From: Kappaphycus alvarezii
Lineage: Eukaryota; Rhodophyta; Florideophyceae; Gigartinales; Solieriaceae
NCBI GenBank assembly: GCA_002205965.3
Contig: NADL03000533.1
Span: forward strand, 372,001-436,000
Reading direction: 5' to 3'
DNA length: 64,000 bases
Below the pieces are notes generated by a model. It did no database searches. It worked only from the letters and a program-made list of their open reading frames with translations, and was not told the DNA's origin. A program made the position numbers and the translations under genes. This document shows, piece after piece, positions 2,151 through 55,480 of this stretch; within the stretch, counting starts at the first letter, position 1, and each line of letters begins with the position of its first letter.

Positions 2151-3215
2151 CCGGTTCAGACTGACAGGCCCGGTGAATCGAAAAAGTTTGCGAAAATTCG
2201 TGTTGTGGTTGGATTTAGTGAAAGCAGCCTTAAAAGGGGAGATTTATGGCGAAAATAATGTGTAGAAATATTGGTAAAGGAAAAAGATATGTAATGGCGA
2301 CGAAGATCAAATAAACGGAGAAAAATATAAGATTTACCATCACAGTGGAAGATAATCGCTCATAAAAAGAGGATCGAGAAACGGAAAGAGTGTAAAGAAA
2401 TGAAAAATTCGTGACGCAAAAGAAAAAGACGGTAAATGTAGAATCAAAAGGAAAGTAAATGAGTAGAGTAACGTAGAAGGGAGTGAATTTGTGCATGTAG
2501 GGACAATACACCAAGTTTCTCTCTTTACATCCCCCTCAATGAAACGAGTCTAGTAATCGATGAGTTTCATGCTACAGTAAAAAAGTCTATTTTTACAGAA
2601 ATGCCCTGTTGCAAACTTTCTGCTTGAAGAATTACTAGAGGATCCATCTCTCCAGACTGCTAAATGATACTCGAACTTGAAATAGCGAACTCCGAATGAA
2701 TTATTGATATTGAACGAAAATTATTATTAGTATCGCAAGATTTCTTTTCAAATGTCCCCGAACTGACAGAATGTAACTCGACGAGCACATGGAGAGAAAT
2801 CAAAAAGCTTAGTATATGTGATATATAATGTAGACCGTGAAAACGATTGAAGTTTTCCGAGAAGCTCAATAAACATGTAAAGTACCACAACACTCAATAC
2901 ATTGTCCATCCCCATCCGGAAGCGTTTTCCATTGTCACAAGCATGACAAAATATGTTGCGAATAGAGTCATGGAACATTTATCGGGGCGGTATCAATTTC
3001 TTTACAACGATATGCCGCGCTAGTGGTCTCCTGTAACGCGGTCTGCCTGTTGTTTGGTCCCCCTACATATTTTTAGACAAAATGAAGGCGTTTGTTATTT
3101 TTTGAGGTTACAAAACGCCTAACTCTCCGTTGTCAGCCCTCTGAAGTCATCCATTAACCATACACCTAATTTGCATCACTTCAAATCCTGCAAACTATTT
3201 TGCCTTTTTATGGTA
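2150..3215. other. AT-rich stretch without recognisable gene
   Basis: Short open frames only, with hydrophobic or low-complexity products typical of AT-rich random DNA. Nothing recognisable. Confidence 0.5.
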
Positions 3216-3690
3216 GAAGGGATGATAGGAATAAATCTACGAGGGAGAGACTCTCAGAAACAATTATCATAGAACGTAGGTGTTGGAAGTGATAAAACGG
3301 CTGCCGAAGTATAGTTGTGGGAACAAGGAGAGATGGATAACGAAAAAGGGTAATAAGGCTATAAAGTGGTACGGAAGGAGCGAAATATACCATGTATTTC
3401 TATGTATGCTTAGTACCTAATGAAAGAGAAACGCTTCTTAGGTTAGAAGTTGACTTTCAGCTTCTGAACTATTTATTATGCACTCTTTTTTCTCCAAAAT
3501 TGCTTGCCGGCTCCTATGGGAGGCAATTTTCTCAGCTTTTATACAGTTTTCGGCTAAATCTAAACTCTCAAAAAATACTAAATACCATAAAATGCGTTAA
3601 AAAATATTTTCTACTAACCTATGGGAAGATATTATCAACGTAAATATGTAGGTAGGTGTCCCCTCGGAGCTTAAAGTCACCAAATGGACG
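3215..3690 (+). repeat. Dispersed ~450-bp repeat, copy 2
   Basis: This is one of the two most complete copies. It begins near a GGATGATAGG word shared in variant form by the copies at 22525 and 41245. It carries the GAAGTTGACTTTCAGC block and the ACCATAAAATGC block, and ends with GTCCCCTCGGAGCT. The copy at 25029-25120 preserves the same right end (GGTAAATATCTAGG, then GTCCACTTAGAGCTCC). No open frame is conserved among copies. Presence on both strands argues for a transposable unit. Confidence 0.65.
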
Positions 3691-3839
3691 TATATAAGAA
3701 AAAAAGACTCGCATCATCAAGAATGATTCGTCACAGGATAAAAACCGTCCGTGTAATGCCCGAAAAGGTAAACAGATACTTATCATGAAAGAGTAAATGA
3801 CTTGCATACAGTTCGCATCCTCGGAGATATTGAGAAGCT

Positions 3840-6800
3840 AGGAAGATATTCTCCCTCTACCAACTGCATTTTGTGTATTTTTATGAAGGAAAGCAATAGA
3901 TGAATATGCGTTGGTGTCTCTCAATGGACGTTCTTGACCGTTTCTCGGTATACTGGGGCCTTCAGAAGATCCTCTCGGGAGACACTCAGAACCTCTTCTG
4001 GGCGTGCTATTGTCCCCAGAGGGCCCTCCTTGGATCATTTCCACTGCCTCAGGGGGATCATTGCCCCTGCTTTCACCTCTATTGAGGCGGGGTGTAATAT
4101 GAGGCTCCCAAATCAGGTACGGCACCAGTCTTCAATCCATACACGGGGGAGATTTGTACTGTCTAAGTTATAGATCTTGACGTTGTCTGGTAATTGATAA
4201 GAATTGCACAAAAAATATTGAGATAGGTATGAGACAAGTTTCTTGTACCCATGTATTCCGAAGCAATAATTGCGTATTGCCTTCACGAAATTTGGACCTG
4301 ATTCCATAACCGTCCGTTTTGGAACAAGGAAAAGGCTCGTCGTAATATTTGGGAATCTTCTAAAGGAAGAAATTTTCAGTTCAATGTACGGAAGCATAGG
4401 CATATGTTAATGTTGAGGTGGATGGTCACATGGATTTCGTAATAATTCTGCGTAAACGAGGCAACCCTTTCCCAAGCTCTCTTTCCTCCCAAATAAATTC
4501 TGTAGTTGTAAATCAGTAAATTTCGTGGTTGCAGGTAGCCGGTGATAAGAAATTATACAAGTTATTGATGCCAAGGAACAAAACGACGTACGTGAATGGC
4601 ACTACTCGATCTGTTCCCTGTGCTTGAACAGAGCCTGTAATGTGGGTGTCCCCCCTCCGTGATAGTGCAAGAGTTGTATTAATTTGATTAGAATGCTTGC
4701 CACTTAATAAACTGTTGCATGGCTTTCATTTTCACGACAAGGACTTTGGAGCCGACTGCAAGGGTTTCAGAATGGCAATTCGCATTTTATTTCTTGTCTT
4801 CTACAACGCTTTGTGTGATCTCCAATTTTCTGTGGCCCATATTTCGACCTACCTACTTTCTCCATCGACTATATTTGCCGTTAAATCTCTTTCTAGAACT
4901 TTTGAAACTTTTCCGTGCATGAGCTCGAATTTTAAGCAACTATTTACTGCATTTCATCGGGGATAACGATGCAATACCTTTGGAAAAGGATTTTCCCACC
5001 CGATGCTCTTGCCTGCCATATTATTCGCTACCGAACGTGTGATTTGTCCTACAATTCTTTCATATTTTTCGTTGGGAATAGGAATTTAGACGAGAACTGG
5101 TTCCAATTGAAAAACTTTCTCTATTAAAAAATACAGCTATTAAGTTCCAGAAAACGAAGAGGATTATCCGAGATGATCTTTTTTGGGAGACCAAATGGCT
5201 CGAACATTCCTTTCTACATTAAGTTAAGACCCACCTGTAGTAGCATTCTTAGTTGTGACTGCCAATGGCCAGCCGATAACTTACGCAACTCTCATGAGAA
5301 GATATTTGTTTCAAGAAGAAACGTCTTCGAATATACCGGCAAAATCAATTGAGAATGCTTCGAAAAATTCTGAAATCGGAACCCTTAGTATAGTCTTGTA
5401 CTTTCGGATTGGAGTGAGCTTTTGACAGGCGTCATAGCTTTTGCCGAATTTATAAACATCCTTGTGCATGTAGGGCCACTAAAATCTTTCCGTAATGAAT
5501 TGATTTTTCGTCCCGAGATCCCGATGACCTAGTGTTTATACGACAATTGTCTTCATACGAGGACATAGTTTTAGGCTTACTTTTTATGTAAAATATATTA
5601 TTTTTCTGTCTTTTTTTGCTAACCTAAAGTTTCAAAAGATAGTGAACCTCGATCAAAAATACTTTTCGGTAATTTATAGCATTGTTCACGGTACGAACTA
5701 CTTTATTCAACTCGACAACCTTTGATTTTAGTGCCAATTTGCCACATTCTATCTTGCAGTTGAATGAATTAGCCGAATTAGTGTATAGGCGAAGGCAGGC
5801 AGCACCTCTCTACTGTAGTTCTATGTTTTAGAGTATATTTTGTGTAAATTGTACGGCCCACCAAAAAATGTGTTACTTACTGTACGTTTTTGTATAATAG
5901 TTCTCATATGAGTACAGTGCTATCACAAATAGACACTAACTCTTTATGAAATTTCCTAAATATCTGTGTTCTTTCTTTAAACGGAGCTACTAGTCTTGAT
6001 TCCCCTTTAGTGTCGAAAAAGCTTTCCTTCACACAGAGCAAGCGTCTTCCATTCTTCCGCACCTATTCTCTGTGCCTTCTATCGACGTTTTGTATTTCGA
6101 AATCCTCCAAGAATCGAATTAGTTCTTCGATACTAGCCTCGAAGTTTTTCCTGCGCATTACTGGCCTTTTTTCAATTCTAGTAACATTCCCGCTAAAAAG
6201 GCAGATAGATTCGATTGACTCTTCGAAAAAGATAAATAATCAGCTGGCCGATCACTGTGTCCTGTTCTGTACAAAATTTCAAACAGGCAATTTGCTTAAA
6301 TTTCGAGCTCCTTAGCCAGCCGATGATGCACATCTTTCTTCTAAAATGGTACCTTAAGTACTAAGACCAATTTTTCCGAGTGATAAAAATTAAAACAGAA
6401 AATTTTTAAATGCGAAACGACTGCCAGCTCTTTCTTTTCAAAGGCAAATTATATCTTCTTTGCGCCATTTAGAGTGAGAATTGTGAGTTTTGCTGGGTAC
6501 GACCCTCTTTTTTCATCTTTTCGGGAGGTGCTCCCAAGAACGATCATATGCATATGTTTCCAAAATATACGCCTTTTTAAAATCCAAATATATGAGTAGT
6601 GTAGGGCCTATAACTTCTTTTTGAATTGTCGAATGCGATCTGCATTTCTTTGTTCCAGAAATGTTTCCCATTTTCGCAGTTTCAGAGTGTACCGGCACCA
6701 CTTTATATTGCAAAATTTTTGATGAGCCACCGGCAATACGAATATAGACCGAGAAATCTGCAGCCTTGATTTTTTGAAGTATTTCTCGATGTCAATTCGA

Positions 6801-12134: not shown

Positions 12135-12640
12135 GAGAATGATTGGGTAGTTCACTTCGTCGTCTGACACTTCAAGCGGGGAAATCTACACGGAGTTTGG
12201 AGAGAAGGAAAGGAGAAAACAGAAATGGGTCTGCGCCTCCGTGAACCTGTGACTATATAGACGGGTCAAGGCAAGCGAAGAGCCATGCGGCATTAGACAG
12301 TACAGCTTGCGCTGCGTGTCTATGCGGGAGGACCATTTTGGCTTTCGAGAAGCTCTCTATTGCCCTCGTGGCCGAATTTTCTTCCAATTCCGAAACGGAC
12401 GTATACGTCTCCAGGTGCCATCCTCCCAGAATATATATCGGGATTGGCACCGGCCCATCCCTTCTCTCAGCAGAAAGTAGCCCTTAGTACCATGTATGCT
12501 TTGCAGATCGGGCCGCGTTCAGGGAAGTTTGGGGGTTGAAGCTCGTGCTTCGGGAATACGACAGGGCAAGGAGGTTAACGAAGGTATCATCCAGGAAATC
12601 CCTCCCGCCATGAGATCCCACGATAATCTAATCCAAGGTT
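12135..12640 (-). mobile_element. LINE family B (subfamily 2), endonuclease end and UTR
   Basis: The minus-strand frame at 12253-12450 reads PIPIYILGGWHLETYTSVSE and then ATRAIESFSKAKMV, matching the 43 kb copy (ATRAMESFSRAKMV). The segment at about 12500-12640 corresponds to the endonuclease core, with a frame change between the two. The UTR ends in the AGACGACGAAGTGAACTACC block shared with 43290-43345. It is a 5'-truncated, disrupted copy. Confidence 0.75.
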
Positions 12641-14108
12641 TCAGCTATGTCGCCTTTGTACTATTCTCAGCTGAGATTTCGATCACTGGCATAATGTTGT
12701 TCGATTACTATGACATAACTTGGAACCCGTAATTTCTGGAATTGGATTTGAACCAGAGTTTCCGTGCCACTCTCCCTCTGAATATCTCTTCTTCCTCCAT
12801 AACATCCTGCGCAGAAGTGGAAGCCGGCTCAGTGTTCCTTTGACATCCCAGATTAGAAAGAGATTCTTTAGAATCAATGCAGCTCTAATAAGGATCGATT
12901 TAGGGAGTTTTCGCTACTCCCCCTATCCCAAACCTTAAATCGAAATATTACTTCTTCTTAGCAGCAACTGCAGGTTTTTCTGGCTTGGGTCTGGGTTTCT
13001 TCGGCTTGTTGTAATCAAATCCAGTCGGCCTAGGAGTAGCTGCCATTTCGACAATTTTCAAATTCCTGTAGACTTCTAATTCTCTGTTTTCGTCGCAACA
13101 AATGGCCCACCGCGGAGAAACGAGAACTCTTAATCCAGGTGAGCAAATAGGGGTCTGAGAGAATCTAATTGCACGGACTGGTTCTTTGAGTTGAGATGAG
13201 ACCAGGTTGCTGTCTGATGTCCTCGCACGGATGTTGAGGGAGTTCGAAACTTCGGCTTTATAAAGCCTCCAGGATATACTAGATCTTATCTATCGTCATA
13301 GAGATGGCCCCTAGTTCCGAGGTATGAGGCAAGATAGTTTTCATTCGTTACAGTGCTTAACTGTGCCTGGAGTTTGGGAGGGCAGCAAAGACTGAATATT
13401 TGAAACAAATAATCAGAATAGAGTGACAACGTGAAATGCGAAGTCCCCCTTAAGATGTAATTGGTACTGAGCAAGATTTGCCCACTGAAATGAACGGACC
13501 TAAGCAAAGGAGAAAGAAAGGGCAGTGCGTCTAATATTTTTGGACCGGAATATACTCAGCCCGCAGCTCAGTTTGAAATGGGGCTCTCATTTCCAATGGA
13601 GCAGCGAATATTTGCTGTAAAGCATGGAGTTTGGAGGCACCAGCATATGCTGATGAGACTATTTGACTTCGGTTAATTGATGTCTACGCTGATCGGCAGC
13701 AACCGTTGGATCAATTAGAATGTACACGTGCGTATTCTTTGTACCGCATTGGAGATGCACCAGTAGCCAAATGACTAGATAAGTTGCTCTTCTCTCGCAA
13801 AGGAAACAATTGATTGCAGAATGCCTTTGATGGATTAATTTCTAGCAGCGACTCACCCATTATCGTCGAGATCTCAAAGGAGAGGCAGAGAGCCAAACGT
13901 TGCTCCATCATTAAAATTCGTTCAAGCTCGAGGAAGACCCATGCGTCGTGAGGGGAATTGGCCAGCAAGGGATGAGAAGAATTGCAGGCCTCCAATTGAA
14001 TGTGTGATTTTCGCAGAGACCATCCCATGATTGTGACGTCACTAGTAAGGGGAAAAATGCAATTCCACCAACCACTGTGTAATCAGCAACAAAGGTTTCG
14101 GTACCGGT

Positions 14109-14139
14109 TTACTGACTGCTTAAATTACTGACTGCTTAA
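14109..14139. repeat. Tandem 15-16-bp duplication
   Basis: The word TTACTGACTGCTTAA occurs twice in direct succession just upstream (minus-strand sense) of the coding part of the unclassified element. Confidence 0.9.
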
Positions 14140-14256
14140 GTACAGTCTGCATAGTTCGATTAGTACTGTCCTGTCTTTGTAGCCGTTCTTCTTATATTGT
14201 ATAGTACAGTACCCGAGCCAATAAATAAAACTGATGTAAAAGTTTATATACACCGC

Positions 14257-14302
14257 TGTGCTATGTGGTGCTGTACAGTACTGTACAGCACCACATAGCA
14301 CA
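14257..14302. repeat. Perfect 46-bp palindrome of GTAC type
   Basis: The left arm TGTGCTATGTGGTGCTGTAC is followed by agt|act and then the exact reverse complement of that arm. There is no spacer. Flanking DNA contains further partial copies of the words (tagtacagtaccc on the left, gctgtaccgt on the right). It could extrude a cruciform or act as a dimeric binding or replication site, but no function is shown. Confidence 0.95.
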
Positions 14303-14329
14303 ATATACATGCTGTACCGTATCGGGCTG

Positions 14330-15680
14330 CATGAGAGCAAAAATGCACAGTATGGCAAATTTCTTGTACTGCATATGCATCGCAGGTCTAGAATCGTCAA
14401 TTTCAAATTATGGTATAAAGTGTGAAGACGCCACGCTGCACTGCACAGTTCTTATTAATCACTGGACTTCCTTACAACAGACAACCTCCGCAGTCACGTG
14501 AAACGGATGAGACTGATGGAGCGCATTGACGGTAAAGTACTCCGCATTCGGTATGAGCCCGTGATGCCAAGACAAAGGAAAGAGACGAAGAGGTGTTCCG
14601 GAATACCTAAATAATCTGAGCTGGCGACTGATTCAAAACTGCGTCATTGTAGCAATGAATAGCGTACACTGGAAAGGCCGTCACTGGAAACGGTAATTTT
14701 TCAATACTCTTTAATCTCTCTCTGGACCTCAATGTTAATTAATTCGAGTCACTATACATTCGCAGTCCTTGCCTTTCCTCTCCTCCAAATCCACACTCGC
14801 AGTTTGGGTTCCAGCCTGGATTCAGCCCATTTTTTCTGTGCTTGTGGCAGACAACGCAGCCTGTCACGGTTATAGCTAGACCCCAATCTCGCCAAATCCT
14901 TAGATAATCTGGAATGCCCAATACCGCTCACAAAATATCTATCCCCCAAACTGACTGATATCATCGCCACTTGTATCCTACCACTCACAGTCCAGACTAA
15001 TAAGAATTGCCACTCTTAATCATACTGCAGCGGCTATTGCTCGCCTCGAGCCCCTTACAGCTTTCCCCCTTTTCTTTTACAGAAAACAACCTCTAAGCTG
15101 CTCTCTGCCAAATCCTCCTCACTTGCGTTCCAAGTCTCTCCTCCCACTACAGAATATGAACCCATTACTAGTGTCCAAAGAACAAGAAAATATACTCATG
15201 TGATTACAAATGATTGTTCGAAATACCTAGATTTATTAATTAATTTTATACCTTGGTGGGCTGAATCCCTGAAGACTAACATCCCCTAACTATAAAAGAA
15301 GTAGTGTTATCCCTATTCACAACAGAAGCTGTGGCCTAATCGGCCTCAAGTATACAATGAAAACAGAAATTGTGATTCTAACTCGCTGCGCTCCTCAGGA
15401 GGGCAAAAACTTCCTTCAGGAAGGTCGACATTTCTGCGACCGTGCTACCACAGTTTGCTTAGCGCGCCCACTTGAACATGACCAAAGGAGTTAATTCAGT
15501 GATCACTCATGAAGGGAAATAACGCCATAGGTACGTATGCTAATTGCTCAAGTCGAACGACGCGAATAAGAAATGTACGCAGCTATAGTCAAGGACTCAA
15601 TTTTTTATTTTTGCTTAGTCAGCCTGCAAAAAATGTAAGCGTAGAAAAGTAAACATCACTATAGAGTAGTCTAAAGCATC
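14330..15680. other. Stretch without recognisable gene
   Basis: No convincing coding region. The segment 14740-15180 is CT-rich on the plus strand and has short open frames on both strands (60-78 residues), none with a motif I know. Part may be an old retroelement. Confidence 0.4.
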
Positions 15681-15682
15681 TT

Positions 15683-17177
15683 CTAATTATGACAGAAGTG
15701 GACATCGCGTAAGTGATTTTGAAAGCAGTTGCGTCCTGTCTCTGAATGGCATATCCAAACCTTCTTGTTCAGTTTCAGGCACTCAGAGCAGAGAAATGTG
15801 GACTTCTTGTCATATTTACAAATTTTGCATCTGCTTTGAAACGCCTCTTTCGTTGGGGCCCCGTTGGCTCCTTTGCCCCTTTTCACTGTAAGCACCAAGT
15901 AGATTCCAGTACCGCAGAGCAATGACGAAACAGAATGCTCCTGAACAGAAGATCAGATCTGCGGAGGCCAATAGAATCAAATGAATTGTCAATGAGTTGC
16001 TCTGCAAATTTTGCATATAATTGCCATCTTAGAAGGATGTCTTTGCGTCCTCGAACTTACCATGGAGGTATGATCCACACGCCTAAAGAGTTCCAGCCCT
16101 GACAAAATGACAAGATAAGAAACTGCCATGTCGCATTCTTGACGGCACCTGTAAAACTCAGTCCATATTCGAAAAGTGCATTTGCTGTAGTCACAGAAGG
16201 AAATGAAGAGTCTGCACAAACAATTCAATTGGAATGAAACCAAGGCTGTGCAAGGCGAAGGGAAATAGAAGTTCCATGGGGGAAATTAGACTCGTAACGC
16301 CGATTATTGTTCTCAGATGCTGACAAAAAAATCTCCAAGTTCAATACAATTCCACTGACACCACAGAAAGCAGTCTTGATTTCACATCCATATTCATGCT
16401 TACCGTCCATAGCGACATAGTGCGGAAGTCCTTCTGACGTTCAGTTTCGGTCCATTCCGTACCTGCGACACATGCTTTCATCCACGTAAATTCTCTCCGA
16501 TGGAGACACACTTGACCTCCTATGCCGTTTTATGGCTTCCACAAATCCACTGACCAAAGAACATCTTCTGTCAGTCCTTTCAGTTTCCGTGTAGCAGCTG
16601 AACGTAATACATGAGACCAGTGCTTCGAAACGGTTCCTCGAAATTGTTTTTCCAAACATTGCAAGGGGAATGTATTTGGATGTCGACTGTGTACTACAAA
16701 GCGACCTTCTGCTTGTGAGCTCGAATCTGCATAGCAATATGAGAATTCCAAATAAACTTCATAATTTCACCAGCTGTTGCATGCATGTGCCCACTATTAG
16801 CGAGTTTCCGGTTGGCTAGCTCGGTAATTGTGAAAATGTGTTCGAGGCGAAATATGCAAAGGAAAAATCGTACAGGTCTTCTCATACTCGATATGATCTT
16901 GAATGTACGTGTCACCTGCTGGAACAATTACCTTCGATGGCCGATGTGTCTTTGGTCTATCAAACGGTAATAGTACCTCCTGATTGGTCCAAAGTTGTCC
17001 ATGCACTTCTTTGCATACCCTTCTTACTCCCGCCATCCCATTGGCTTCTTCTCGAGGTTCTTCTCCTGAAGTTTGACGATTCGGTAGCTCGATTAGGGCA
17101 GCAGATGCCTCTATTTCATTGAATGATGCGGGGAAACTTTCAGATGCTTCTGCTGGCTTGATATTGACAAGTTTCAA
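15683..17177 (-). pseudogene. piggyBac-type transposase relic 1
   Basis: Read on the minus strand the family's landmarks appear in order. The N-terminal region is at 16797-17177 (PAGDTYIQDHIEYE). It is followed by ATAGEIMKFI and IPLAMFGKTISRNRFEALVS, then the first catalytic region IYVDESMCRRYGMDRN (ending at 16441). Next come DGKHEYGCEIKTAFCGVSG near 16350-16410 and CADSSFPSVTTA near 16190-16220. A C-terminal Cys/His cluster (CKICKYDKKSTFLCSEC and WICHSETGRNCFQNH) lies at 15683-15840. This is the cut-and-paste DDE transposase that targets TTAA. The frame shifts at least four times, so the gene is dead. I did not find convincing terminal repeats. Confidence 0.85.
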
Positions 17178-17399
17178 GCTAACACGCTTTGCCCGATCCT
17201 GAATAGACCAGTGTGCGGTGAACGTTGTCTGACGTCTTCAGGTAGATGTTTCGATTTCGATGCTGACCACAGTTCCGTTGACGCGCTTACTTTTCCAAAG
17301 GGAACCGAATAGTCGTCTACACACAGCCACTGACGTAAAAAGGGTTGCTCGAGTGTTGACAAGGTTTCCGGACTGTTGACGGGGGTCATTTGGATTTGT

Positions 17400-19079: not shown

Positions 19080-21900
19080 CACTATTTATGATTCAATGCT
19101 CTCTAAACGAACGCGATCATTCTTGACATTGTTAACTATCATTTGAGGCTTCAAATCAATGTTCTTTATCCGAACTTTGAGAGCACTGTCCTTCTTCAAA
19201 TGAATACAGCCATAATTGTCCTTAGGGATACATGTGAGTATTGCCTTAATTTTAAACAGCGTCATGAACTTCTTATACCGCAATGCCACCGGAATCACAA
19301 ATGAAAGGGCTATACATTCTGCTTCTGGTGAGCTCTGCGAGACGATATTCTGTTTCTGACTCTTGCAACTAATTACACCCTCTGTCAGCTTAACCATGTA
19401 CTCGGTGACTGACTCGCGCTCAGGACGCTCCTGAAATCAGTCTGAATGACAGTAGCAGTGGATAACGAGGATTTCCCCAGACTTGTACAAAATGCACATT
19501 TTCACAGTTTTACGCCAGTAACGGAGAAGATTTTTTCCCACCTTCAGATAAAAGTATAGCGGTTTCCGTAGGTAGCAATGGAGGTAGTTTGTAGCGTAGT
19601 AGATGTAGTGCCGTGTTTTATTCGCGAAATATATCAAGAAACTGACGAGTAGGAATCATCTTTGTAGCTTTTCTACTCTGGTATGCAGTATAAATAGTCG
19701 CAGGCTGTTAGAAAGTTTTCGCAAGCCTCGGGAAATCGAGCTGTCCCCGTCGATCAATAAATATTGAGTTCCTTTTTTATTATTCTCAGTCCTATTCAGG
19801 TAATACATCATTCATTTGCTTTGAATCACCATTTAGGATCTACGGATATGATTTAATTTTTGATATAATTTGATATCTTGCCAAGGCTCATTTTTGAAGA
19901 GTTGGGAAACAAAGCCTTGTGGCGTTGGAACTGAAATACGATTTCAATTCCCCATATTGAAGTATTTTAGTAGCTTCTCAACAGCCCCAGCCTTGTGTAA
20001 GAAGATGCCATGATACAAATCTTCAATGAACAGTTCCACAAATTTTGACTTCTTGCCAGCAACGCGAACCTTGAAACGTGTATACAGCTGATCAGACACT
20101 AGAGCCATCTGGTGCACACCATTTACCTTGAGCAATCAGTCGTTCACAAACACAAAAATGATTACCAGCACTTCACCAGCATGTTTTTCATTGAAAGATA
20201 GATCTGCATGGGTGCTATTAAGTTCAACTGATTCAAGGAAGGCATAGAGCAATTTTTTGCACAATCAGGACAGTTGGAGCTGGACGTACAGTACCTTCAG
20301 TAGAAGGTAAACGTGGTACTCGTGGCGTAGAATAGCAGATACTTCCGTCTTCTCAACTTAGAAGCTCCTGGCCCAACGATGCATTAAGGTAGGCATTCTT
20401 TATATCAAGACTCATTCGTGTCCACCCTTTTGATGCCATTAAGGCTAGAACCACCCGCAAAGTGCTGTACTTTGACACAGGAGAGAAGAAATACGAAAAA
20501 GACCACCCTCCACCTGCATAAAGCCCTTCCCGATCAGTCCAGATTTGAATCTAGAAATTAAATGCATCGACTCTACTTATAGGTAATACGTCCGACGCAT
20601 TAGAATTTATTGGGTCACCTCCAGGAGCTGTTTTAGGCTATATAAATTATGTTCAGTCAGAGAAGTGAGGTGATCCCGAATTGTGGCATGCCATTCGGCT
20701 TTATTATCCGAAAGCATGTCCTCTTTGAAGGGTACCGTTATAGACATGGTTTCATTCCCATTCATCCACTGCTGTCTATTGATGTATCATACTAACAGCG
20801 CTTCGGTGGCTCACCAGCAGTGTGGTGGGACGATTGCCTCAGACCAGGATCGTATGAAACTGATTCTAGAGGTTCTTACAACTGCTTCTCAACAGCAGGC
20901 AAGGGTGCGATGGGATCTTCGTCAAATATACCTGCAGGTATGGGCTCCAATTCATGGTCCTCCCTTTTATGGTTTCGAACTCTGGCTCAGCCTGGTCTTG
21001 ATCGTTGCTCTGGTCCGTGTCCAAGTGTTCTGACTCCAATTGAGCATCTCGAAACAGGCATAATTCTCACACGTGGCATATGCAGCTCCAGGATTACCAG
21101 ATACTTCATCAAGTGAAACACATTTCGAAATTGAAATTTTAGGAGAATCCGTGACAAATATCCGAGCAGTATCTTTAAGTTTCACTCCAATAAATACCTT
21201 TTTTTGGCTCGCGTGTAGAATTTCGACTTCCGCGTTTGTTTTTGGATTGCAGAAATGCCTTACGCTTGAAAAAATGTACATGAAAAATGGCCAGTTTCAT
21301 TCCGTGTATGACTTTAAACGAATTAGCTCTGGACCTGTTTGGGTTTACAGCCGATTCTGGACGTGATTGGCTTATTTGACGGTCTCCGCTCACAAGGGCT
21401 GAGAGTACATGGTGCAGAGGTCATTGCAGATCTCTTTATATCCATCAGGATATGGTTCAGTCTCCAAGCGAGACTATTAGAGTCTTGTGAGTAAGCTGTC
21501 TTTATATCATGAAGTATAACGCTTCTCTCAAGCCGTGACCGCAATTATTTTCCAAGATAATCCTCATCAACGTCCATTATGAACCTTTTGAGGGTTTGCG
21601 CTGAATGAGGCAGAGTTTTTTGCACGGTATGGCTGAACATGTTCTCCTGTTTTGATATCATTTCAACAATTACCTCTCCTGCTATTGACTTCCGTAATAT
21701 AAATAACCACCTCCATTGTTGAACACTTCACTGGTTTCTTTTCAGGGATTTTATCAGCTGCAAATTATTCTTTTCCTTCCTTGTTTGACAAGTATCACCA
21801 AGAAGACCATACTGAAAGGCAATTTCGATCTCCGTCCTACGCTTTCTCTCCAATTGCTTAACACCACCTTCATATTTCCTAGCCATTATCCTGCCTAATA
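19080..21900 (-). mobile_element. Ty1/Copia retrotransposon fossil (pol region)
   Basis: Minus-strand parts in Copia order: the end of integrase at about 21060-21560 (SPKISISKCVSLDEVSGNPG), the start of reverse transcriptase at about 20330-20460 (MSLDIKNAYLNASLG), its middle and end at about 19944-20200, the stretch after it at 19437-19637 (ANKTRHYIYYATNYLHCYL), and RNase H at 19086-19397 (QKQNIVSQSSPEAECIALS). Integrase before reverse transcriptase is the diagnostic Ty1/Copia order. It is broken, with many breaks, and old. LTRs were not identified. A TATA-bearing insert of unknown type may sit at about 19660-19830. Confidence 0.85.
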
Positions 21901-22856: not shown

Positions 22857-25028
22857 CAGTGATGATTCAATATAAGAATAAGAAGCGAAAAAGCATCCCA
22901 TATTCTTATATAGAAAATATTCTTACGTGGAAAGATGGGGTTCAATGGGACCTTACTGGGTCGCAGCGAACCCATATGTTGTTTTTACTTAAAGAATGAA
23001 TCTATCGTTTCTTGGCGTTTGCTCCTATTAATCATCGCGGCTATATCGCGCTTCAATCGGTAGAGGTAACGCAAGGCGCCGTAATTGGGAGCATCTTGGG
23101 CCTCAATTACTCGCATTGCTACAGAAAGGGCTTCTAACTGCTCTTTATTAGGTGGTAGCACCTCTTGCTCGCCAGGTGTTTCATCTGTGTAAGCTCCAAC
23201 CGTATCCTCACGAATTTACCAAACTATATCCTCCGCCATATTGGCGACAGTAGGCTCATTTTAGCAGTCCGCATTATCACAATTCAGCAAACTGTTAATC
23301 GAAATCTTGGAGCGAGGAGGAGAAATCTGATTAATAACATCCTCAAGCTCACGCTCCTCTCCAACAGCATATTGGTTGATGTCATGCTCTGCATCATCTA
23401 CGACAGATCCAAACAAAACGGTCGCGTCCCAACAATTTGAGATGATGGAGGCGGAAATAGAATCACAGACATCACGAATAGATTACATCCCTAAACGTTT
23501 ATCAATCTTGTAAATGTTTTCTGCGCCATCATCCAAAGCACCAAGGGCCCTTTCGTATTAAAGATTTCGATAGCTCGTTTTTAAAGTAGCAATTATACCA
23601 GCATTCATCGGCTGAAGTTTCGACGTCGTGTTGGGCGGTAAAAACTAAATCTGAACATTTGATAATACCGGGAGCGTTTAAACCGTCCCATGCGCACCGC
23701 AGTTATCCAGCAGCAGCAGGGCTTTCCTCCCAGTTCTGCTCTTGATAAAGCTGTTGAAACGGTCTAGCCAGTAAAAACAAAGTCCAGAGTTCATCCAGGC
23801 CTTTTTATTATTCCAGTAGTCAAAGCCAAGATCCTGTCCGGTTTTACCTCGAAAAGCACGAGGACGGCGGACCTGTTTAATAATTATGAGCGGCATCTTG
23901 CCGGTATCGCTCGCGTTCGAACAAACCAGTAGAGTTAAACGAACTTTGGCTTTTTTGCGGCCGGGCATAGGTTCTCCTGAAATAGTCCTGTCGGTAGCCA
24001 TAGAATAATAAAGGCCAGTTTCATCAGCATTTCAAACATCACTTCTATCATACTCTGAAATCAAAGCCCGAAGGCGTGGCAAGGCAGTTTCCACAGCGGC
24101 ATTGTGGACATCCCTATTTTCCCCATAAATTCGACGGGACCTAAGATTCCAACGTTTCTGAAACTTTGACAACCACCTTGAAGTGAACTTTAAGCAGACC
24201 TGCTCGCTCTATGGAAGCATGGCATTAACTGCATCCTGCAGCCTCAGCGCGTCTTCTCGCTAATAACGGCACCGGTCAAGCATTAGAGAGAGTCATAATT
24301 TGCTCTGACCCAGGTTGCAAGATTTTTCTCTAAAGCCGGTTGTGCGCGGCCCCTTTTACGGTGAATTTGTTTGTTGGATAGGGTTACTGGTTTTTTTGGG
24401 AGAGCAGTCTGGACATGAGAGGTTGTGAAAGGAGAAAAGCCAATGAAAACCTTGGTCGAGCCTATGCTGCAAGGCTGGCATGGGAGGAAGCTAACCCCTC
24501 CGCTTTGGGTCGTGAGAATTCCTCTTGGATGACAGCCTTTTGCTTGTGCGTGAGGTTGTGACGCTGCATGTTTGCATGAGAAAATAGTGGATGATGGTCT
24601 GGGTTCAATGCTTATAAAGCTCTGTTGGTCGCCTATACTGTACAATAGCATGCCCTTTTTGAGTCGATATGTGCTTTTTCTGAGTACAGTGCTGTGTGCG
24701 TGTGAAACTTTTACTATGACGTGCTTCTGTAGCCTGCAGACTGCAGAAGGGTGTTACAGCTAGTGGTCTTGCAAAATGGTTTGTTCGTAATACTATAGCC
24801 GTTGAGATGCTTTTATATTCAAAATTTGGCACGCAGTGTGTGGTCAAAAAGTCCCCTCTTTGTGCTTTGGGGAGTAAATAGAATGCCCTATGCACATTCT
24901 TATATCAATTAAGGATACAAGTGCTCCAAAACGTACCAAAATCGCACTTACCGAATTGGGAAATGCTGTTTGCATCCTTGTAAAGGAAAAATACTTGTAC
25001 TGAACATTCTTATAGAGAGAAAACACTA
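22857..25028 (-). mobile_element. pogo/Tigger-type DNA transposon, 2.17 kb
   Basis: The ends are CAGTG... on the left and ...CACTA on the right, flanked by TA at 22855-22856 and 25029-25030. The word TATAAGAAT sits 14 bases inside each end (22871-22879, and inverted at 25006-25014). Extra copies of ATTCTTATA occur inside both ends. A broken DDE transposase is read on the minus strand between them. It inserted into a dispersed-repeat copy whose halves rejoin perfectly in order once it is removed. The ends match at about 16 of the first 23 positions, so the insertion is fairly old. Confidence 0.8.
22985..24560 (-). pseudogene. pogo/Tigger transposase relic
   Basis: This is a cut-and-paste transposase of the CENP-B/pogo group. 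On the minus strand the N-terminal DNA-binding part (RAQPALEKNLATWVRANYDS) lies near 24285-24345. The second helix-turn-helix (TSRWLSKFQKRWNLRSRRIY) lies near 24130-24190. The first catalytic Asp is in NADETGLYY near 24020-24046. The 107-residue stretch 23678-24001 holds the core and the second Asp (LLLLDNCGAHG). The third site reads LPPNTTSKLQPMNAGII near 23590-23640, with Asn where the family has Asp. The C-terminus ends QETIDSFFK, typical of pogo proteins. Frame changes and several stops (for example just before NADETG) make it inactive. Confidence 0.88.
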
Positions 25029-35900: not shown

Positions 35901-36420
35901 GAATGGCAATTCCACTCCCATCTTGTGCAGATATTATACAATATGGTGCAACAAGAATTATAACAGTCTGTTTTGAAAGATTAGTAGCCTCTGTACCAAA
36001 AGATTTATTTCTCATTTTCATACGAAACAGCATTCTGTAGGGACAAGGGATTAGTTATACATGAGGTGTCACGGAGCGATTGAGATTATATAAAAGTTTG
36101 GTCCAACCCAAAATTTTTTGCGTCTGGCCTTACCCCAATCTTGGTGCTTGTATATCTGGCACTGTCTCTAATGTACATAAGTTCCAGTTACCGCCTAATT
36201 ATTTGACTTTTTCTTCTCTAATCTAGAAGACACCTAAAATCTCCCCCACATCTACATGCGTATTTTAAGCCGAGTTTCTTGATACATATGGACTTTTTTA
36301 ATGTGGGAAGTAAATGATGAAGTGAGGGTCGCGAGTATCTTCGCTTATCTTTTTGGTGATGTAAAGAACATATATACAGCAAAGTTCTTTGATTTTTGGT
36401 CCCTAAATGGTAATGCAACT
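32900..36420. other. 3.5-kb AT-rich stretch without recognisable genes
   Basis: Open frames of 66-96 residues occur (for example 33181-33384 on the plus strand, 34573-34863 on the minus strand), but their composition is that of AT-rich DNA and none carries a known motif. A TATA-like and LTR-like zone at 36050-36200 may belong to the Ty3/Gypsy fossil that follows. Confidence 0.45.
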
Positions 36421-39400
36421 TAGCTGAGGTCTGTGAGTGGCTTGTAAAAGAATGTAAAAAGGAAATAGGACCAGATGAGATGATCCGCACCGCCACAAAG
36501 TCCAATCTAAACTTTAGTAATTTGTGAAGTTTATAGGTTCACTTGTGTGATCTCTACGAAACCCCTGAGTTCAAAGCCCAAGCCAAGTAAGGAATTCTGC
36601 ATAAGGCGCTAATTGAGGATAAACTGCTCTCTGATTTTCTACTCATAAAAGGCCCTCAACATTTGAACTATCTGAAGTGCACTGTTGCCGCGTTCGTTAA
36701 GAGTTCGGAGACATTTCGTTCACTGGGTGAATTACCAATCGAAGACCCTATATCGACATCCCTCGTGTATCTCGGGAAGAATTATCTGAGGCCAGATATC
36801 AGCCCAGCGACTTTGTAAGCCGTGAGAAGAGAATTGAAAAATTTAGAAGAACGACTGGAAACGCGGTTCGGCAATCGACTGGACATGATAAAACTGCAGT
36901 TTAAGAGTCCTACTCTAACCATGAACAAAAAAACAGTCCGATATTTAGAAGGCTACAGAATGCTGCTTCGATTGCCATAAGCCTGTAAACTTTTCAAATA
37001 CATGCCTAGAAAATACACACTAGAATAATTTTTGCGGTAAGTGTGGTCGCTGCAGTCGTTATGAAAGCAGCTGCTGGAGTAAAGATAATAGACTGTAAAT
37101 CGTCTCTGGTGCACGACCCTTATTTGGACATGAGATTAAAATATTACAAAAAAGAAGGATGATAAACTGAACTGCACTGATATCGTATCTACCGCTGAAG
37201 AGATTGGCCAATCAAATGTGATAAAAGGGGATTCAGAAGGTTTTTTGCTATCAAAGGAGCCAGGACTCGATCATTAAATGCTTCAGTAGATTCCAGCGCC
37301 TGTATTTGTCCGGAAGAATAGATTTAATCAAGTTGTACCACTAGCATATACTGCTCTAGAAATGAAAGTAAAACTAAGGAAGAAATTCAAAGATACACCA
37401 AGAAATGTATTAGGGTATAAGAAGACGTAAATAGGTGGCCAAGCTCGCTTCTGCGCCAACTAGAGTTAAGGTTGGGGATGTATTAAGGGGACACAGAAGA
37501 TGCGAGTAAATAGCTCAAAAATATTGTGAAGTCCATTAAATCCAGCAAGGGGAAGAAACTGTTTCCTAACTCGGCCTTGACTGCACAAAGAAGTCTTAAA
37601 CAAGTACAGTTGAAAATTTTGCTGAAGAAATATACCAAGCTCTTTTCCGTCATGATTAGGTTCCACATTTCATTTCAGAATGTTTGGTGACAAATCTCGA
37701 CCTCGAAATTGTTTCAAATAACCGAAAGATAGCTCTTGCGTACGGAACTGTATCAATACTTCTGGGTACTTCTGACAACGTTCCCGTATTTTCGCGTACC
37801 GGTAACTTGGTATGGAGATTTCTTGGTATATCTGGGTTACCTCTCGATGCAATCTTTGACAGTCCGCCAATAGAAGAGTTCGGGAAATGCTTTGACCTTG
37901 GTGTCCAAAGTGTATCAGTGATAATTGACTTAAGAACCTAAATCTCCTAGACATGGATAGAAGCGTGAGATCAGAAGAACTAAGAGATACAAGAAATGAA
38001 AATTTTCACTTCTACCGATGACATTTAAGATCCAGGGTCAAAAAAAGTTCGAAGAAGGAAAATTTCATGACAAAAAGGATACTGAACACAGCGAGGGATT
38101 TTTATGATTCTGTGTGGGATGCAGTAGAAGACTGGGATTTGAAGGCAAACTTGAGCTCTGAACTCGTTGCAGTTTGTGATATCTTCGGATTTGAGTACAT
38201 TGTTAACAGTATGAAATGTGAATATTCATCCGAAGAAGCATTTGATTTGTCGCCTATCAAAACCAAAAATATGCATAGTGAAACAGAATTGGACCATCAA
38301 GCAGATAAGCGAAAGGTCACCAGCAAGAAGAGCAAAAGGTCGCGTATATTAATAAATAACTGAAACACCCCCTTCTATTGGGTATAAGAAAACATCCAGG
38401 ATATTAATATCTTTCGGAGTCATTGCATGGAGCGTTTCCGATTGAAGACAAGGAATTGTACCGGTCACTCACTTGAACGAGCTTACCAATACTCAATCAA
38501 TTAAGCATAAGTATAAACGTTAACATTCAAAATATGACCAGTGTATTTCATTAAATATTACAAATATGGTTGAAGTTGACATAATTCGGCCAATCTCGTC
38601 ACTATGGTCATTTACTGTCATTGTTAGGCCAAAAAATGATAAAAGGTTCGATTTTCACATCAACCATCGACAATGAAAACAGGGAATGATACTGGATCGA
38701 TTTCCTATTGCAAATATGAAAGGAATAGTCGAATATTTGAAGGTTCGAAGACATTTCACTTCAATTCTTTTGTACGCTGGCTATCTTTGGATTCCCTTGG
38801 ATGAAAATTGCAAGGAGAAAACAAACAGTCACAACCAAAAGCGGTACATTAATAGTGCCTTTCGGTGTCATTAATGCATTAGCCACATTCCAAAATATTG
38901 AGAATGAATTTTTTAGACATCTATACTTTATAGGAAGCATATTGATTATATTTTTATATTTTAAAAATCTGTGGATGAGAAATTTTCGGATATGAGGACT
39001 TTAAAAGCTAAAATATCAAGAAACGCTTTACAATTAATTGAGAAAATGATTATTTCCGCGATAATATATCAAGCTAATGAGCCACATTGCAGCTGGAGAG
39101 TAAGCGAAGTTTGGCTCACAAAAAAGAGAAAAATATAAATGTAGCCAGTAATTCGCTTAAAGATGCTCGTTCGAGGTGTCCTTGGTCTACCTTCGTAATA
39201 TCAACGGTTCATCAAAGTTTTCGCAAGGTAGCAGCACCACTTCGTGCTATAACATCGAAAATGGGTAGTTTTCCGTAAAAAGAGAAATAAAATCCGCATT
39301 CCACGAACTTAGAATTTACGTGTATCTTCAGTGCTAATATATATGGATTTGAAAACCCCACTTTAATGGAAGTTTATACTTCAGATCTATTTTGGAGGCA

Positions 39401-40250
39401 AATATGTCCTACAATGATTAAAACAGAAGACGATAACCCTTCCAATTTGCAAGTAGTGCGTTATGCGATGCAGAGAGTAGATACTCCGTTTATAAGGATT
39501 CAGTAGCTTTCGTTTTGTGTTGACAAAGAATCTTGTTTACCTGTTATGACTTGGAAAGTTTATTCTCATAACTGACCACCAGGTACTTGAGGTGGCGTTA
39601 CAGAAGACATATTTACGTCAACGGTTGGCTAGGTGGCTTGAAATTTTGGCAGAGTACCGGTTTGCAATGTTTCATAGACCTGGACGCAGTAATCAGCCTG
39701 ATGATTATTTATTTCGTTTGAAAACCCGACTGAATCCGAGTAGTTTCCTTCACGAGAATTTCGTTCCAAAATTGCGTCGAAAAACGTTTGACTCTAATAT
39801 CCAAGAAATCTTTTGATTTTTTAGGACTTAGAAATATGAGACGTCGACATGAGGCACAGAGAATGAGCTCGAAGGAAAGATTGAGCCTTTCCACTTTGTC
39901 AAAAATATATTTCACTCCTCACGACAAAAAGGTCTTGACTCGTAGCCCTATCGAAAGAGAGAATAAAGATATTCGGTACATTTCACGGTAAAATAGAAAA
40001 CTAAGGTCTCGTAACAACGAAAAATACATCACGGAAAGATTTTAGTGGCTCAACATCGACAACAATGTTCACAATTTCATGAAAATCTGTGCCCCCTGTC
40101 AAAATTTCACTCCGACCAAAATCTACAAAAATAAGCCCAGTTTACCGATCTCAGGCTCTTTCTAAACTTTCTCAATCAAATTTGTCGGCAAGCCGGAGGA
40201 AGCATTATATCTTTTCTGCTCCGCAATATCTCCGAGGAAGGGAACAATGT
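36420..40250 (+). mobile_element. Ty3/Gypsy retrotransposon fossil 2
   Basis: Plus-strand parts in order: Gag-like stretches at about 36420-36830 and 37080-37440; reverse transcriptase at about 38580-39000 (ILDRFPIANMK at 38689, YAGYLWIPLDENCKEK and TTKSGTLIVPFGVINALATF beyond); RNase H at about 39540-39760 (RLARWLEILAEYRF then FHRPGRSNQPDD); and the integrase zinc region at about 40040-40140 (HNFMKICAPCQNF). Reverse transcriptase before integrase gives Ty3/Gypsy order. It is heavily broken, with many breaks, and old. No LTR pair was found. It is a separate insertion from the 3.8-7 kb fossil. Confidence 0.85.
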
Positions 40251-40633
40251 GTAAGTCATTGAGTCAAAATAAGCATATATTTATGTTTACAGTAAATACA
40301 CGGACCTCAATTATTTTATGAAACTCACTCTTGCTGATGCATTTCTATCTTTCTTAAAGACATCCATTTCTATGTTATCTTCCAGGTGAGTTCGTATATC
40401 ATCTATATTACTTCCACTCTTGGAATATTAGGAAAGTTTGCCGAAGAAAATTTATTTAGCTCTTATCCCGATGTTATCAGACTTCTAAATGAGACCGCCA
40501 TGTAGAGAAAAACTTTGGGTAATTTAATATTTGGAAAGAAAAGTCATTCTCTGAAGTATAATCACAATTTCCATTAGGGGTTGAGGTGAGTAGGTGTGAT
40601 CTTACAGGGTAGGTTTTTTGCAGCGTAGCCGCT

Positions 40634-45459: not shown

Positions 45460-45950
45460 CTGACGCGGTTAAGTTTATTGTCCGCAGATAAATTGTACTC
45501 AGTCGTCATTCTCAGGACGGAAGCTAAACTCTTATGCGGGATACAGGCTGCCAAAAGTTTTTTCCGTAGAAACTTCGGAAAGGAAATATCGTAAGATACT
45601 AGGCAGTGTGATTTACTGGACGGAAATACTAGCGATAAGGCATTCCATCCGTTGCTTTAGATATCTCATAGGTCACCCTACAAATTCAAGAGATTTTAGT
45701 TGACACTACTTCCATTCCTGCGAAATCTGCTAACGGCACTGAATACGCCTCTGTCAAAGGCATTGCTTCTACACTTAGATCTTCTAACAAGATAATCTCA
45801 AACTGACATAAGCCTAAATGGCAATAAGATGAAAGATAAGTCGGAAGGGAATCCTCAGAAAAGGTACAGAAACCGTATCAGGTTGACGATGCAGGGGGCT
45901 GTAAATTCTAGCGAGCCGAATCCATTTATTTTGGTTTCATCCCTTTTAGG
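45460..45950. other. Stretch without recognisable gene
   Basis: Mixed sequence with no supported coding region, RNA gene or repeat match. Confidence 0.45.
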
Positions 45951-47260
45951 CTGCAACCACTGGCTTCTCGGGTTTCGGTTTGGGCTTCTTGGGTTTTGAG
46001 TGATCGCATCCCTTTGGGCCTGATATAACTCTCATTTCAGCGTCGATAACTTCAAGAAGTTCTCGATATTTCTCGATCAATTTTGGTCTTGTTGTACTCT
46101 GCTGAGCAGATCTAAATGAAGTCAAATGCGTGAGTTATTCGGTATCCCTCAGCACGCCTTCCCCTTTTACTCTGCGCCAGAGCAGATCTGTGCCAAGGTG
46201 AAAGTAGGAATTGGTTTCGGTATTTGGGAGCGATCAGTAACACAGGGTGAGCTGGTCAGTAGCACAAACGAATCTCAGCGCTTATTACATACATCTCAGA
46301 GAGCCTGAAACGTCACTTTTATAGTAACTTTCGAAAAGGATATGTGAAACCATGTTTGCCATCTAGACAAAGGCCTTAGTTAATGTTACAACAATCATGT
46401 GATCTGGACGTTTTACAGCACACACCAATGCTTGTTTGGGAATTCTTCTCATGATTGAAGCTTGCAAAGAAACTGGCCATTAAATTTATCATTCCAAAGG
46501 GCGCAAGCGTTGTGGGGTACAGAAGAAGGATTGAAGACGACTTCTTGTGGAGGGCAATGAAGAAGATATTTACAGGGCACTGGGCAACTTTGTTATTTGA
46601 AGCACCTATCTCTTAGTCAAATGTGCAGTACAGCTGGGCTTAATTTGGATTGATTGCCTTCAGAGCGGCAAATGTTTGTCCCTATGCTTAAAGTACAAGT
46701 TTCCGACCCTTTCCCTTCTAAGAAATTGATAGAGCTGACTACTAACTTCAAATAGTGATCCAGAACATGACATTCCTCCTTTGTATTTCAGTTGAGATAT
46801 ACACGTGCGTACCCTTTGTACTTGAAGAGATGACCAGACAAAGAAACTTGCCGTCATAGTAACCTGTAATACAGCAGGGAACTGTTCGGTTGAAGAAATT
46901 TGGCAGAATCAGGTGAACTGAGGCTTTTGGGTACCTGATAGGTCCTGTTCCTTGAAGAGGGGGAGGGTAATCGTGAAAAATGACGCCATCCGTTAGCGTA
47001 AAAATATAGCTGTACTGCACAGGTGTGTGTACAGTACTGTACAGTGCAGTACAGTACTGTGCAGTACATGCATACACTGTATTTTGTTCTTTAGACTGCA
47101 ACGGGACCTCCCCAATTTCAACAGGTTGTGCATCATTGCTATGTACATATACAGTATAATACTTTACTGCGTTAGTGCTGTACCGTACTGTGCTGTACGT
47201 AGGAAACAGCACTATTTCAAACGTTATGTTAAAATAATGTACTGTACAGCAGTGCAAAGT
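45950..47260 (-). mobile_element. Unclassified coding element, copy 2
   Basis: Colinear with the element at 12948-14330. On the minus strand its C-terminal stretch (about 45948-46130) reads EKYRELLEVIDAEMR and ends HSKPKKPKPKPEKPVVAA; copy 1 has NKPKKPRPKPEKPAVAA. Further up, TACAAAGGGTACGCACGTGT near 46800-46820 matches TACAAAGAATACGCACGTGT of copy 1. The region beyond, 47030-47250, is again dense in TGTACAGTACTGTAC-type words. It is broken, with several breaks, and more decayed than copy 1 in the middle. Family unknown, treated as a fossil. Confidence 0.45.
47030..47250. repeat. GTAC-palindrome-rich zone
   Basis: TGTACAGTACTGTACAGTGC, AGTACAGTACTGTGCAGTAC, GCTGTACCGTACTGTGCTGT and ATGTACTGTACAGCAG occur within about 220 bp. 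The same word family forms the 46-bp palindrome at 14257-14302, in the same position relative to the coding part of the unclassified element. Confidence 0.85.
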
Positions 47261-49486: not shown

Positions 49487-49639
49487 TATATTACTGTTCT
49501 TTAATCTAGTTCCTGTCGCAGTATAATAACCCTACGGTTCAAACATTTAAGGAAACCAACCTATGGTTTCCACTATTTATTATTCATCACGTACTTGATT
49601 GAGGGAAACATTTTGGTTATTTTAATGTATGGAAGATGT

Positions 49640-50110: not shown

Positions 50111-50941
50111 AGCCCTACCAACGCATCATTTGCAGTAAACAAAACCCATTTCCCTTTTATTAACTGTGCAAAAGATGAGTTCGTGCGGTGAATAATAATT
50201 TGAGGACCACACTAACACTTTATCAAAGCAAATTGCTAACAGCAACAGGGATAACTAAAAAAGTACGCATTACAGCAATCAGGGATAACTTATGCAGCTT
50301 ACTTGCTCCAGTAGTTGGGACTGATTTGAACTTTTTTGTTGGACGTTTGCTCGAGACAGAACTGGTGAAGGCAGGGTTAAAAATTCTTGATCACTCGAAT
50401 CTCCGGATGCTGCTATACAGCGGCTATGGGCGCGGGGCGCTTCTTCCCGGGATGGTACCCCAAAGGGGTGTAGTGTGACAGCTTCCGTCTGGTGCCAACC
50501 TTACTTGTCTTGAGTGGACGTACGCTGCCAGCAATGGCCGACCTGGGGAGGCACACGAAGCGGAGAGGATGTTCCAGCGAAAAGGCAGGTGAATTGCCAG
50601 GACCGAGATAAATGACCGGGAGTGATGGAATGGTGGAATTGGATGAGGTGATCGGCGTGTCTCCCCAGACGCTGAAATCTTTGTCCGGTTCCATTTGTTC
50701 CATCATGCGCACGCTTGGGTAAACTCTTTTTATTTGGTGTGTTCGCGTTGTACGCCCGTGACCAATATGCGCGTTGATCCTCTGACCAGAACCAAATCAA
50801 CATTTCCCTTGGTTAATGAATTTGCGTGACACTTGAATCATTACATATTCATGATAAAACCAAAAAACAATCATAACATAAAATCAAGAACAAAAGACGG
50901 CTTTTGAATGGGCTATGAAGGATGAATCGAGGGTTGGAGGC
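50110..50941. other. Segment of unknown nature next to the YR element
   Basis: Open frames occur on both strands: 50188-50478 on the plus strand, and 50413-50712 and 50501-50803 on the minus strand. The minus-strand frames are less biased but have no domain I know. The word GAATAATAATTTGAG at 50190-50204 recurs exactly at 51218-51232, immediately beyond the terminal repeat of the neighbouring element. This segment could therefore be part of that element's 3' region or a separate insertion. Confidence 0.4.
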
Positions 50942-50944
50942 GGG

Positions 50945-51217
50945 AGAACAAGCGACGACTTGGAGAGCAGAGAGAGCAGCGGTGGCGACCAAAGTCGAAG
51001 CTTATATAGCCCTGTTCGACGGGTTGCCTTCGCACTTTCGCAAGTATTTGAACACGAGAACCTTACCAGACAGACACTTTGGCTCAGTGTTGATGTACTT
51101 ATGACAGACTGCCATAGTAGGAAGCAGCCTGTCACGCGTGACCTGCTTGTAGTTATGGAAGGCAGACACGATGAGGCCTCTCAATACATTCACCCATAAT
51201 TTTCCAATCATAATACC
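50945..51217 (-). repeat. 3' terminal direct repeat of the DIRS-group element
   Basis: About 273 bp, matching 55208-55480 with roughly 12 differences. On its right it is followed at once by GAATAATAATTTGAG, also found at 50190. Confidence 0.9.
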
Positions 51218-51269
51218 GAATAATAATTTGAGAAAACCAAAGGACCGGAGGGATGATACGAGGGTGAGG

Positions 51270-52712: not shown

Positions 52713-52866
52713 TCGTCCATTGTATGCAGGCGAGATAGCTTGTCGGCGAATCGGTTCACAGCAGACGGGAGGTAATGAGATTCGATGGATATGCCGAGAA
52801 GAGTAAGCAATCGGTGTAACACTCGGAGCTCTCTAATGAGCGGTTTGAACTTCGTTGTCATAGCGT

Positions 52867-54186: not shown

Positions 54187-54262
54187 TACGAAGCGGCTTT
54201 ATGAGTGTTGCGCCATAGAACGTGCGACATAGCAGAAAGAGAAGGTCGCGGCTGCGACGAGT

Positions 54263-55139: not shown

Positions 55140-55207
55140 GTTGATGTGTGAATTGTGAAGGTCGGCCTAGACGGTTGATTCGTCCGGAGCTGGTTCGAAT
55201 GGTGAGA

Positions 55208-55480
55208 ACAAGAGACGACTTGGGGAGAAGAGAGAGCAGCGGTGGCGACCAAAGTCGAAGCTTATATAGCCCTGTTCAACGGGTTGCCTTCGCACTTGCG
55301 CAAGTACTTGAACACGAGAACCTTACCAGACAGACACGTTGGCTCAGCGTTGGTGTACTTATGACAGACTGCCATAGTAGGAAGCAGCCTGTCACGCGTG
55401 ACTTGCTTGTAGTGGTGGAAGGCAGACACGATGAGGCCTCTCAATACATTCACCCATAATTTTCCAATCATAATACCAAA
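55208..55480 (-). repeat. 5' terminal direct repeat of the DIRS-group element
   Basis: Partner of 50945-51217. The element's RNA probably starts here, since TTATATAGCCC on the plus strand provides an AT-rich core and the Gag-like frame begins 70 bp inside. Confidence 0.9.

Follow-up and report, generated by a model that had tools for sequence, protein, structure and literature searches.

Organization of the locus

The analysed stretch of DNA (the window) comprises 64,000 nucleotides, positions 372001-436000 of contig C529, in an assembly of 336.0 Mb and 884 contigs. Two related segments, copy A at 12948-14330 (-) and copy B at about 45946-47260 (-), lie in it on the same strand, 33 kb apart. 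They have in common a short open reading frame (ORF), one further island of nucleotide similarity and a GTAC-rich patch about 1 kb upstream of the ORF (Table 1). In copy A the ORF opens with an ATG at 13046 and its stop codon occupies 12948-12950. The second colinear copy reported in the initial annotation is thus present, the Lys/Pro tail at 12951-13046 (-) corresponding to 45949-46035 (-).

Table 1. Features of the window discussed in the text (strand "." where the feature has no orientation)
Feature	Position	Strand	Remarks
Decayed end of LINE-like element	12138-12644	-	just downstream of A; by eye
Micro-ORF A	12948-13046	-	32 codons and stop; rich in Lys/Pro, pI 10.5; all six A copies intact
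Body of A, from ORF to GTAC patch	13060-14130	-	no coding signal in any frame; six-copy alignment
Conserved island A, ACGT core (TACGCACGTGTA)	13711-13763	-	A/B alignment
TGACGTCA, 8-bp palindrome upstream of A	14034-14041	.	present in all six A copies
GTAC-rich simple-repeat patch of A	14193-14302	.	perfect 46-bp palindrome at 14257-14302
Decayed piggyBac-type transposase	15686-17237	-	upstream of A; DDE_Tnp_1_7 at 16444-16758, E 6.1e-10
DDE_1 fragment	23681-24031		Pfam, E 1.8e-19
Micro-ORF B	45946-46035	-	29 codons and stop; pI 10.1; three of four B copies intact
Conserved island B	46788-46837	-	colinear with 13711-13763; A/B alignment
GTAC-rich simple-repeat patch of B	47008-47260	.	
Reverse transcriptase	47672-49531		RVT_1, E 2e-6, just under Pfam cut-off
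Reverse transcriptase	53601-54083		RVT_1, E 4.6e-6, just under Pfam cut-off

Several transposon-related features accompany the two copies. A longer relative of the LINE-like end, in locus L048, gave no Pfam match, and the outer parts of the piggyBac-type transposase, where Pfam found no match, were assigned by eye. A LINE-like insertion with reverse transcriptase (47675-49483) is absent at the matching place at C529:355.9k; an overlap of about 10 bases between its flanks resembles a target-site duplication. The second reverse transcriptase belongs to an element at 50164-55478, which also holds an ORF of 480 aa, tyrosine-recombinase-like by eye, and two direct repeats of 277 bp that are 95% identical (50944-51220 and 55204-55480). 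This element is probably DIRS-like; it is absent at the matching C529:356.6k, and sequence about 70-75% alike is found at C529:444-449k. Further, the stretches 3682-6670 and 36316-40370 are mutually inverted members of a multi-kb repeat family, 65-70% identical, with more copies on both C529 and contig C780. In the assembly as a whole, phycobilisome genes gave three matches over the cut-off, which fits a red seaweed as the probable source, though contamination by cyanobacteria may also account for them.

Copy number and genomic arrangement

Segments 12948-13450 and 13451-14135 gave six genome matches each, at the same six places: C529 321k, 385k (the window copy) and 471k, and C780 505k, 575k and 638k. 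Copies of type B lie at C529 354k (a partial match, E 0.2) and 418k and at C780 534k and 604k. A search with the tail peptide at E up to 10, in which ten first-look candidates were scored, returned at least ten places (6 A and 4 B). Since all of these lie in the arrays, we reject the idea of a more remote parent gene in another part of the genome.

All ten places in the 336 Mb fall in two tandem segmental-duplication arrays and none is dispersed. The order is A-B-A-B-A on both contigs, and the spacing of A copies gives duplication units of 64-86 kb. The sequence flanking each A copy remains homologous over kilobases, at 85-98% identity and with interruptions by private insertions. What was duplicated is therefore a segment of 64-86 kb and not an element of 1.4 kb. 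The genome-wide copy search proposed in the initial annotation as a means of defining ends and copy number thus yielded the number (6 A and 4 B) but no common ends. The array regions are C529:300001-496000 and C780:496001-516000, 566001-586000 and 630001-650000. The C780 array is opposite in orientation to the C529 array and about 85-93% identical to it in the main blocks, and the two may represent either two loci or two strongly diverged haplotypes.

Homology between the two copies

A and B are colinear ancient duplicates, representing two old lineages. Outside the GTAC patch only two islands of A/B similarity are statistically detectable, the ORF and the ACGT island, the latter with 53 bp at 74.5% identity and E 3.7e-4 in a comparison of 1.5 x 1.5 kb. 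The copies therefore align beyond the Lys/Pro tail as well, a point on which the initial annotation had made its reading depend. Comparison of the A and B bodies gave a Smith-Waterman score of 21, whereas 300 shuffles reached at most 17 and 56 other pieces of the window at most 16. The longest common word, 12 nt in the core of the island, is not significant alone (words of at least 12 nt appeared in 63 of 1000 shuffles and in one of 59 tiles). Three sub-stretches of the body compared separately gave no signal, the observed score being reached in 100, 187 and 125 of 300 shuffles. Homology of A and B could be detected neither downstream of the ORF stop (293 of 300 shuffles reach the score) nor upstream of the GTAC patch (159 of 300). 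Because the divergence is so high, this absence of outer homology does not prove that the duplication boundary coincided with the ends of the element.

A 21-mer covering the ACGT island has zero-mismatch matches at exactly ten places genome-wide, the 6 A and 4 B copies; four more places match with one or two mismatches, the same number that the reversed control gives when up to two are allowed. The 8-bp palindrome TGACGTCA stands at the colinear position in two of the three B copies examined, in addition to the A copies: within 46979-47022, both C780 copies carry TGACGTCA and the window carries TGGCGTCA. We consider TGACGTCA a putative regulatory site and the conserved upstream islands candidate promoter elements. 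TATA-like words upstream of both ORFs in the A/B alignment were too weak to claim.

Selection on the reading frame

Both ATG and stop are kept in nine of nine copies examined, leaving out the fourth B copy (C529:354k), in which the ORF is split by an insert of 1.56 kb. This insert (C529:354219-354281, about 2662-4222 of locus L011) has flanks that overlap by about 5 bases.

Across the 29 aligned ORF codons, A and B differ at 29-32 nucleotides in the 18 pairs (6 A x 3 B), with 18-20 of the differences at third positions; these counts come from an ORF of only 29-32 codons, and its low-complexity Lys/Pro composition makes matches easier to obtain. For the 321k copy, 19 of 29 differences from B are third-position (binomial p 0.0004) and 8 residues are changed, against a neutral mean of 17.3. 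The window copy has 32 differences, 19 of them third-position (binomial p 0.002), and 11 residue changes against a neutral mean of 18.5. None of 5000 neutral simulations was as low in residue changes as observed, for either of these two A copies. The last 16 codons hold 13 and 14 differences from B in the two A copies, of which 12 are third-position, and only 1 and 2 residues are altered; the first 13 codons are poorly conserved, with 7 and 9 of 13 residues changed.

Owing to this excess of third-position differences and to residue changes too few for the simulation, the earlier claim holds that most differences in the tail are third-position ones, that few of them change the residue and that the two lineages diverged while the protein was under selection. 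Purifying selection has acted on the ORF between A and B; as in a conserved small ORF, the frame has been retained under such selection across diverged copies. Comparison of the A copies with one another rests on five sequences, since two of the six are identical. Of their 14 variable ORF sites, 7 are synonymous (neutral mean 3.4, P 0.026); the distribution of these 14 sites over the codon phases, 2, 5 and 7, is no more than suggestive.

Over the six codons that precede the ATG, where gaps were placed by hand, A and B differ at first and not at third positions, and the window and 471k copies have insertions of 1 nt shortly before the ATG. Because of these two features coding seems, on the alignment, to begin at the ATG, which would then be the real start. 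The B frame is open well upstream of its ATG.

The body between ORF and GTAC patch

An alignment of the six A copies over window positions 12630-14128 gave pairwise identities of 93-99%. Every frame across the body is broken by 1-nt indels in each copy, and the 179 variable sites among 1499 bases favour no codon phase consistently; two of 13 blocks reached p<0.05 uncorrected, neither of them spanning the tail. Because of the frame-breaking indels and the absent phase signal, the body bears no sign of being protein, and we reject coding in this stretch of about 1 kb. Of the protein-like minus-strand stretches over 1.1 kb described in the initial annotation, the tail stands and the rest does not, as no frame is open in the six A copies. 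Long open frames in the other A copies were also considered: the six A loci contain two stop-free stretches of at least 150 codons, one in L003 and one in L004, both on the strand opposite to the ORF. A by-eye impression of WD40-like or other protein in the body found no credible support in Pfam, PHROGs or PDB. We regard the body of A as a candidate promoter or 5' untranslated region.

GTAC words

The GTAC tetramer occurs 237 times in the window, against 237.5 expected. Four GTAC clusters were listed there, one beside A (14273), two beside B (47012 and 47180) and a weaker one at 20286-20319. Both copies do adjoin GTAC-rich patches, as had been noticed, but the packing is local only and the window as a whole is at expectation. 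TGTACAGTACTGTACA, a palindromic junction of (TACTG)n, has 1119 exact places in the genome versus one for the reversed control, and a (GTACT)n 21-mer occurs 1973 times genome-wide (both strands, overlapping words counted) versus none for the control. Four sampled GTAC places have no common flanks by eye. As in a microsatellite, the unit is scattered genome-wide between unrelated flanks: a single pentanucleotide simple repeat, in its different phases and at its inverted junctions, gives rise to the GTAC words. Because this repeat is spread through the genome, the words do not mark this element, and GTAC palindromes in this genome should be taken as simple-repeat background and not as cis-acting sites. 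A literature search for the GTAC motif found no paper.

The perfect 46-bp palindrome is present in the window and 471k copies and absent from the four other A copies; possibly one arm was copied from the other by templated conversion of an imperfect palindrome. An RNA gene was considered and rejected, since the 17 permissive Rfam matches were all to microRNA models, far below gathering scores, and all fell on the palindrome region 14245-14311.

Evidence against a mobile or viral origin

The initial annotation had proposed a unit of mobile or viral derivation that carries cis-acting palindromes of its own. This proposal is not supported: the copies found occur in two arrays only and without common ends, and GTAC is genome-wide. 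We reject such a unit on copy number, context, missing ends and missing homology. No dispersed copies with common ends exist among the ten exact places, and common element ends are lacking because the homology of A copies continues well beyond either end. Neither 12948-14330 nor copy B is bounded by terminal inverted repeats (the 5 and 8 inverted pairs detected are short or weak and consist of GTAC palindromes), and no direct repeats longer than 25 nt, as of LTRs, lie around the element. Pfam gave no Gag-type domain or zinc knuckle above the cut-off, and no capsid, Gag, polymerase or transposase match was obtained within the element in Pfam, PHROGs or PDB. The suggested profile search of the main stretches returned no credible family in these three collections, in agreement with the first impression that they match no nameable family. 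A stretch of 113 aa had no credible match among viral contigs, phages and plasmids, a negative that extends to eukaryotic viruses only as far as these sets contain them. One candidate virus-like element is thereby removed.

As a rival account, the same view would make A and B the remnants of an old transposable element or endogenous virus that has lost nearly all of its coding region. The neighbourhood is full of decayed transposons (RVT_1 just under the Pfam cut-off, DDE_Tnp_1_7, DDE_1), and two diverged lineages do exist. Nevertheless, we think this improbable in view of the confinement of all ten exact places to two segmental-duplication arrays, of flanks common for kilobases without terminal repeats, and of the missing matches to capsid, Gag, polymerase, transposase and, for the 113-aa stretch, viral contigs, phages and plasmids. 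No empty site was seen either; as units were found through the element they carry, one could escape.

A probable small gene carried in segmental duplications

We suggest, with a probability of about one half, that A and B are two copies, long diverged, of a single small host gene, probably without introns, for a basic Lys/Pro peptide, together with about 1 kb of upstream non-coding DNA with a few conserved ACGT-type sites. Stated more broadly, the locus most likely contains a micro-ORF gene specific to the lineage, or such a gene's last exon, which a segmental duplication has carried along; it resembles a small orphan gene more than it does a virus or a transposon. Such a gene would consist of an upstream control region of about 1 kb, a short 5' leader and a strongly basic Lys/Pro peptide of 29-32 residues, and may well have its own promoter. 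The pair of A and B would be carried along as a segment of about 64 kb, duplicated in tandem on each of the two contigs, and the GTAC simple repeat would just happen to sit in the upstream region of the gene. Its expression, by putative transcription and translation, is a guess from the sequence. The peptide could be, from its composition, a putative microprotein binding nucleic acid or another polyanion (DNA, RNA, sulfated polysaccharide); this function too is a guess, because no homologue is known. More speculatively, we imagine an orphan microprotein family of one algal lineage, in which a peptide of about 30 residues rich in Lys/Pro, with an ACGT-site promoter, has stayed intact in almost all units of the two tandem arrays for the sake of its dosage or function.

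The chief rival is that the tail represents the last exon of a larger spliced host gene, whose other exons are too diverged or too short to be recognized, A and B being paralogues. Although we hold it less probable, it would account for the B frame, which stays open for 108 codons in the two C780 copies (62 in the window) with a helix-like stretch before the Met, and for an AG dinucleotide that precedes the conserved stretch in A. On the other hand, a joined frame would be broken by the 1-nt insertions that the window and 471k copies have shortly before the ATG, and no second A/B coding island was detected beside the tail, the sole strong tblastx block. Some upstream minus-strand pieces were searched, and above the cut-off they yielded transposase domains only. 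It is also conceivable, with small probability, that the ORF was selected during A/B divergence and is now a pseudogene, a relic amplified passively by segmental duplication. One B copy is indeed split by the 1.56-kb insert, 11 of 29 residues are changed relative to B in the window copy (8 in the 321k copy), and the evidence for selection within A is weak (P 0.026). Still, nine of ten copies have the ORF intact, and synonymous changes among A copies remain above expectation.

If the small host gene is real, it is a very short protein-coding gene of a kind that gene finders would miss, recognizable only since an ancient duplicate pair and recent tandem copies allow selection to be measured.

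Comparison with known systems

GTAC words in this DNA are phases and inverted junctions of the (TACTG)n / (CAGTA)n pentanucleotide microsatellite; the patches in the window differ from it in being short and degenerate instead of long clean arrays. Linker histones are an example of proteins with basic tails rich in Lys and Pro. The A/B peptide is like such tails in its repeated K-P-K words and its pI of 10.1-10.5, a resemblance of composition only, without a Pfam or PDB match. Small-ORF or microprotein genes have a short conserved ORF, no known domain and a strong third-position bias. The A/B ORF is like them in all these respects, and differs in being a candidate read from DNA, with no homologue found outside the arrays in this genome and no family match. 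As for the carrier, the arrays resemble a tandem segmental duplication (low-copy macro-repeat) in their direct-order units of 64-86 kb, with 85-98% identity and private insertions, and they differ from it in that each unit holds two ancient copies, A and B, of the candidate gene.
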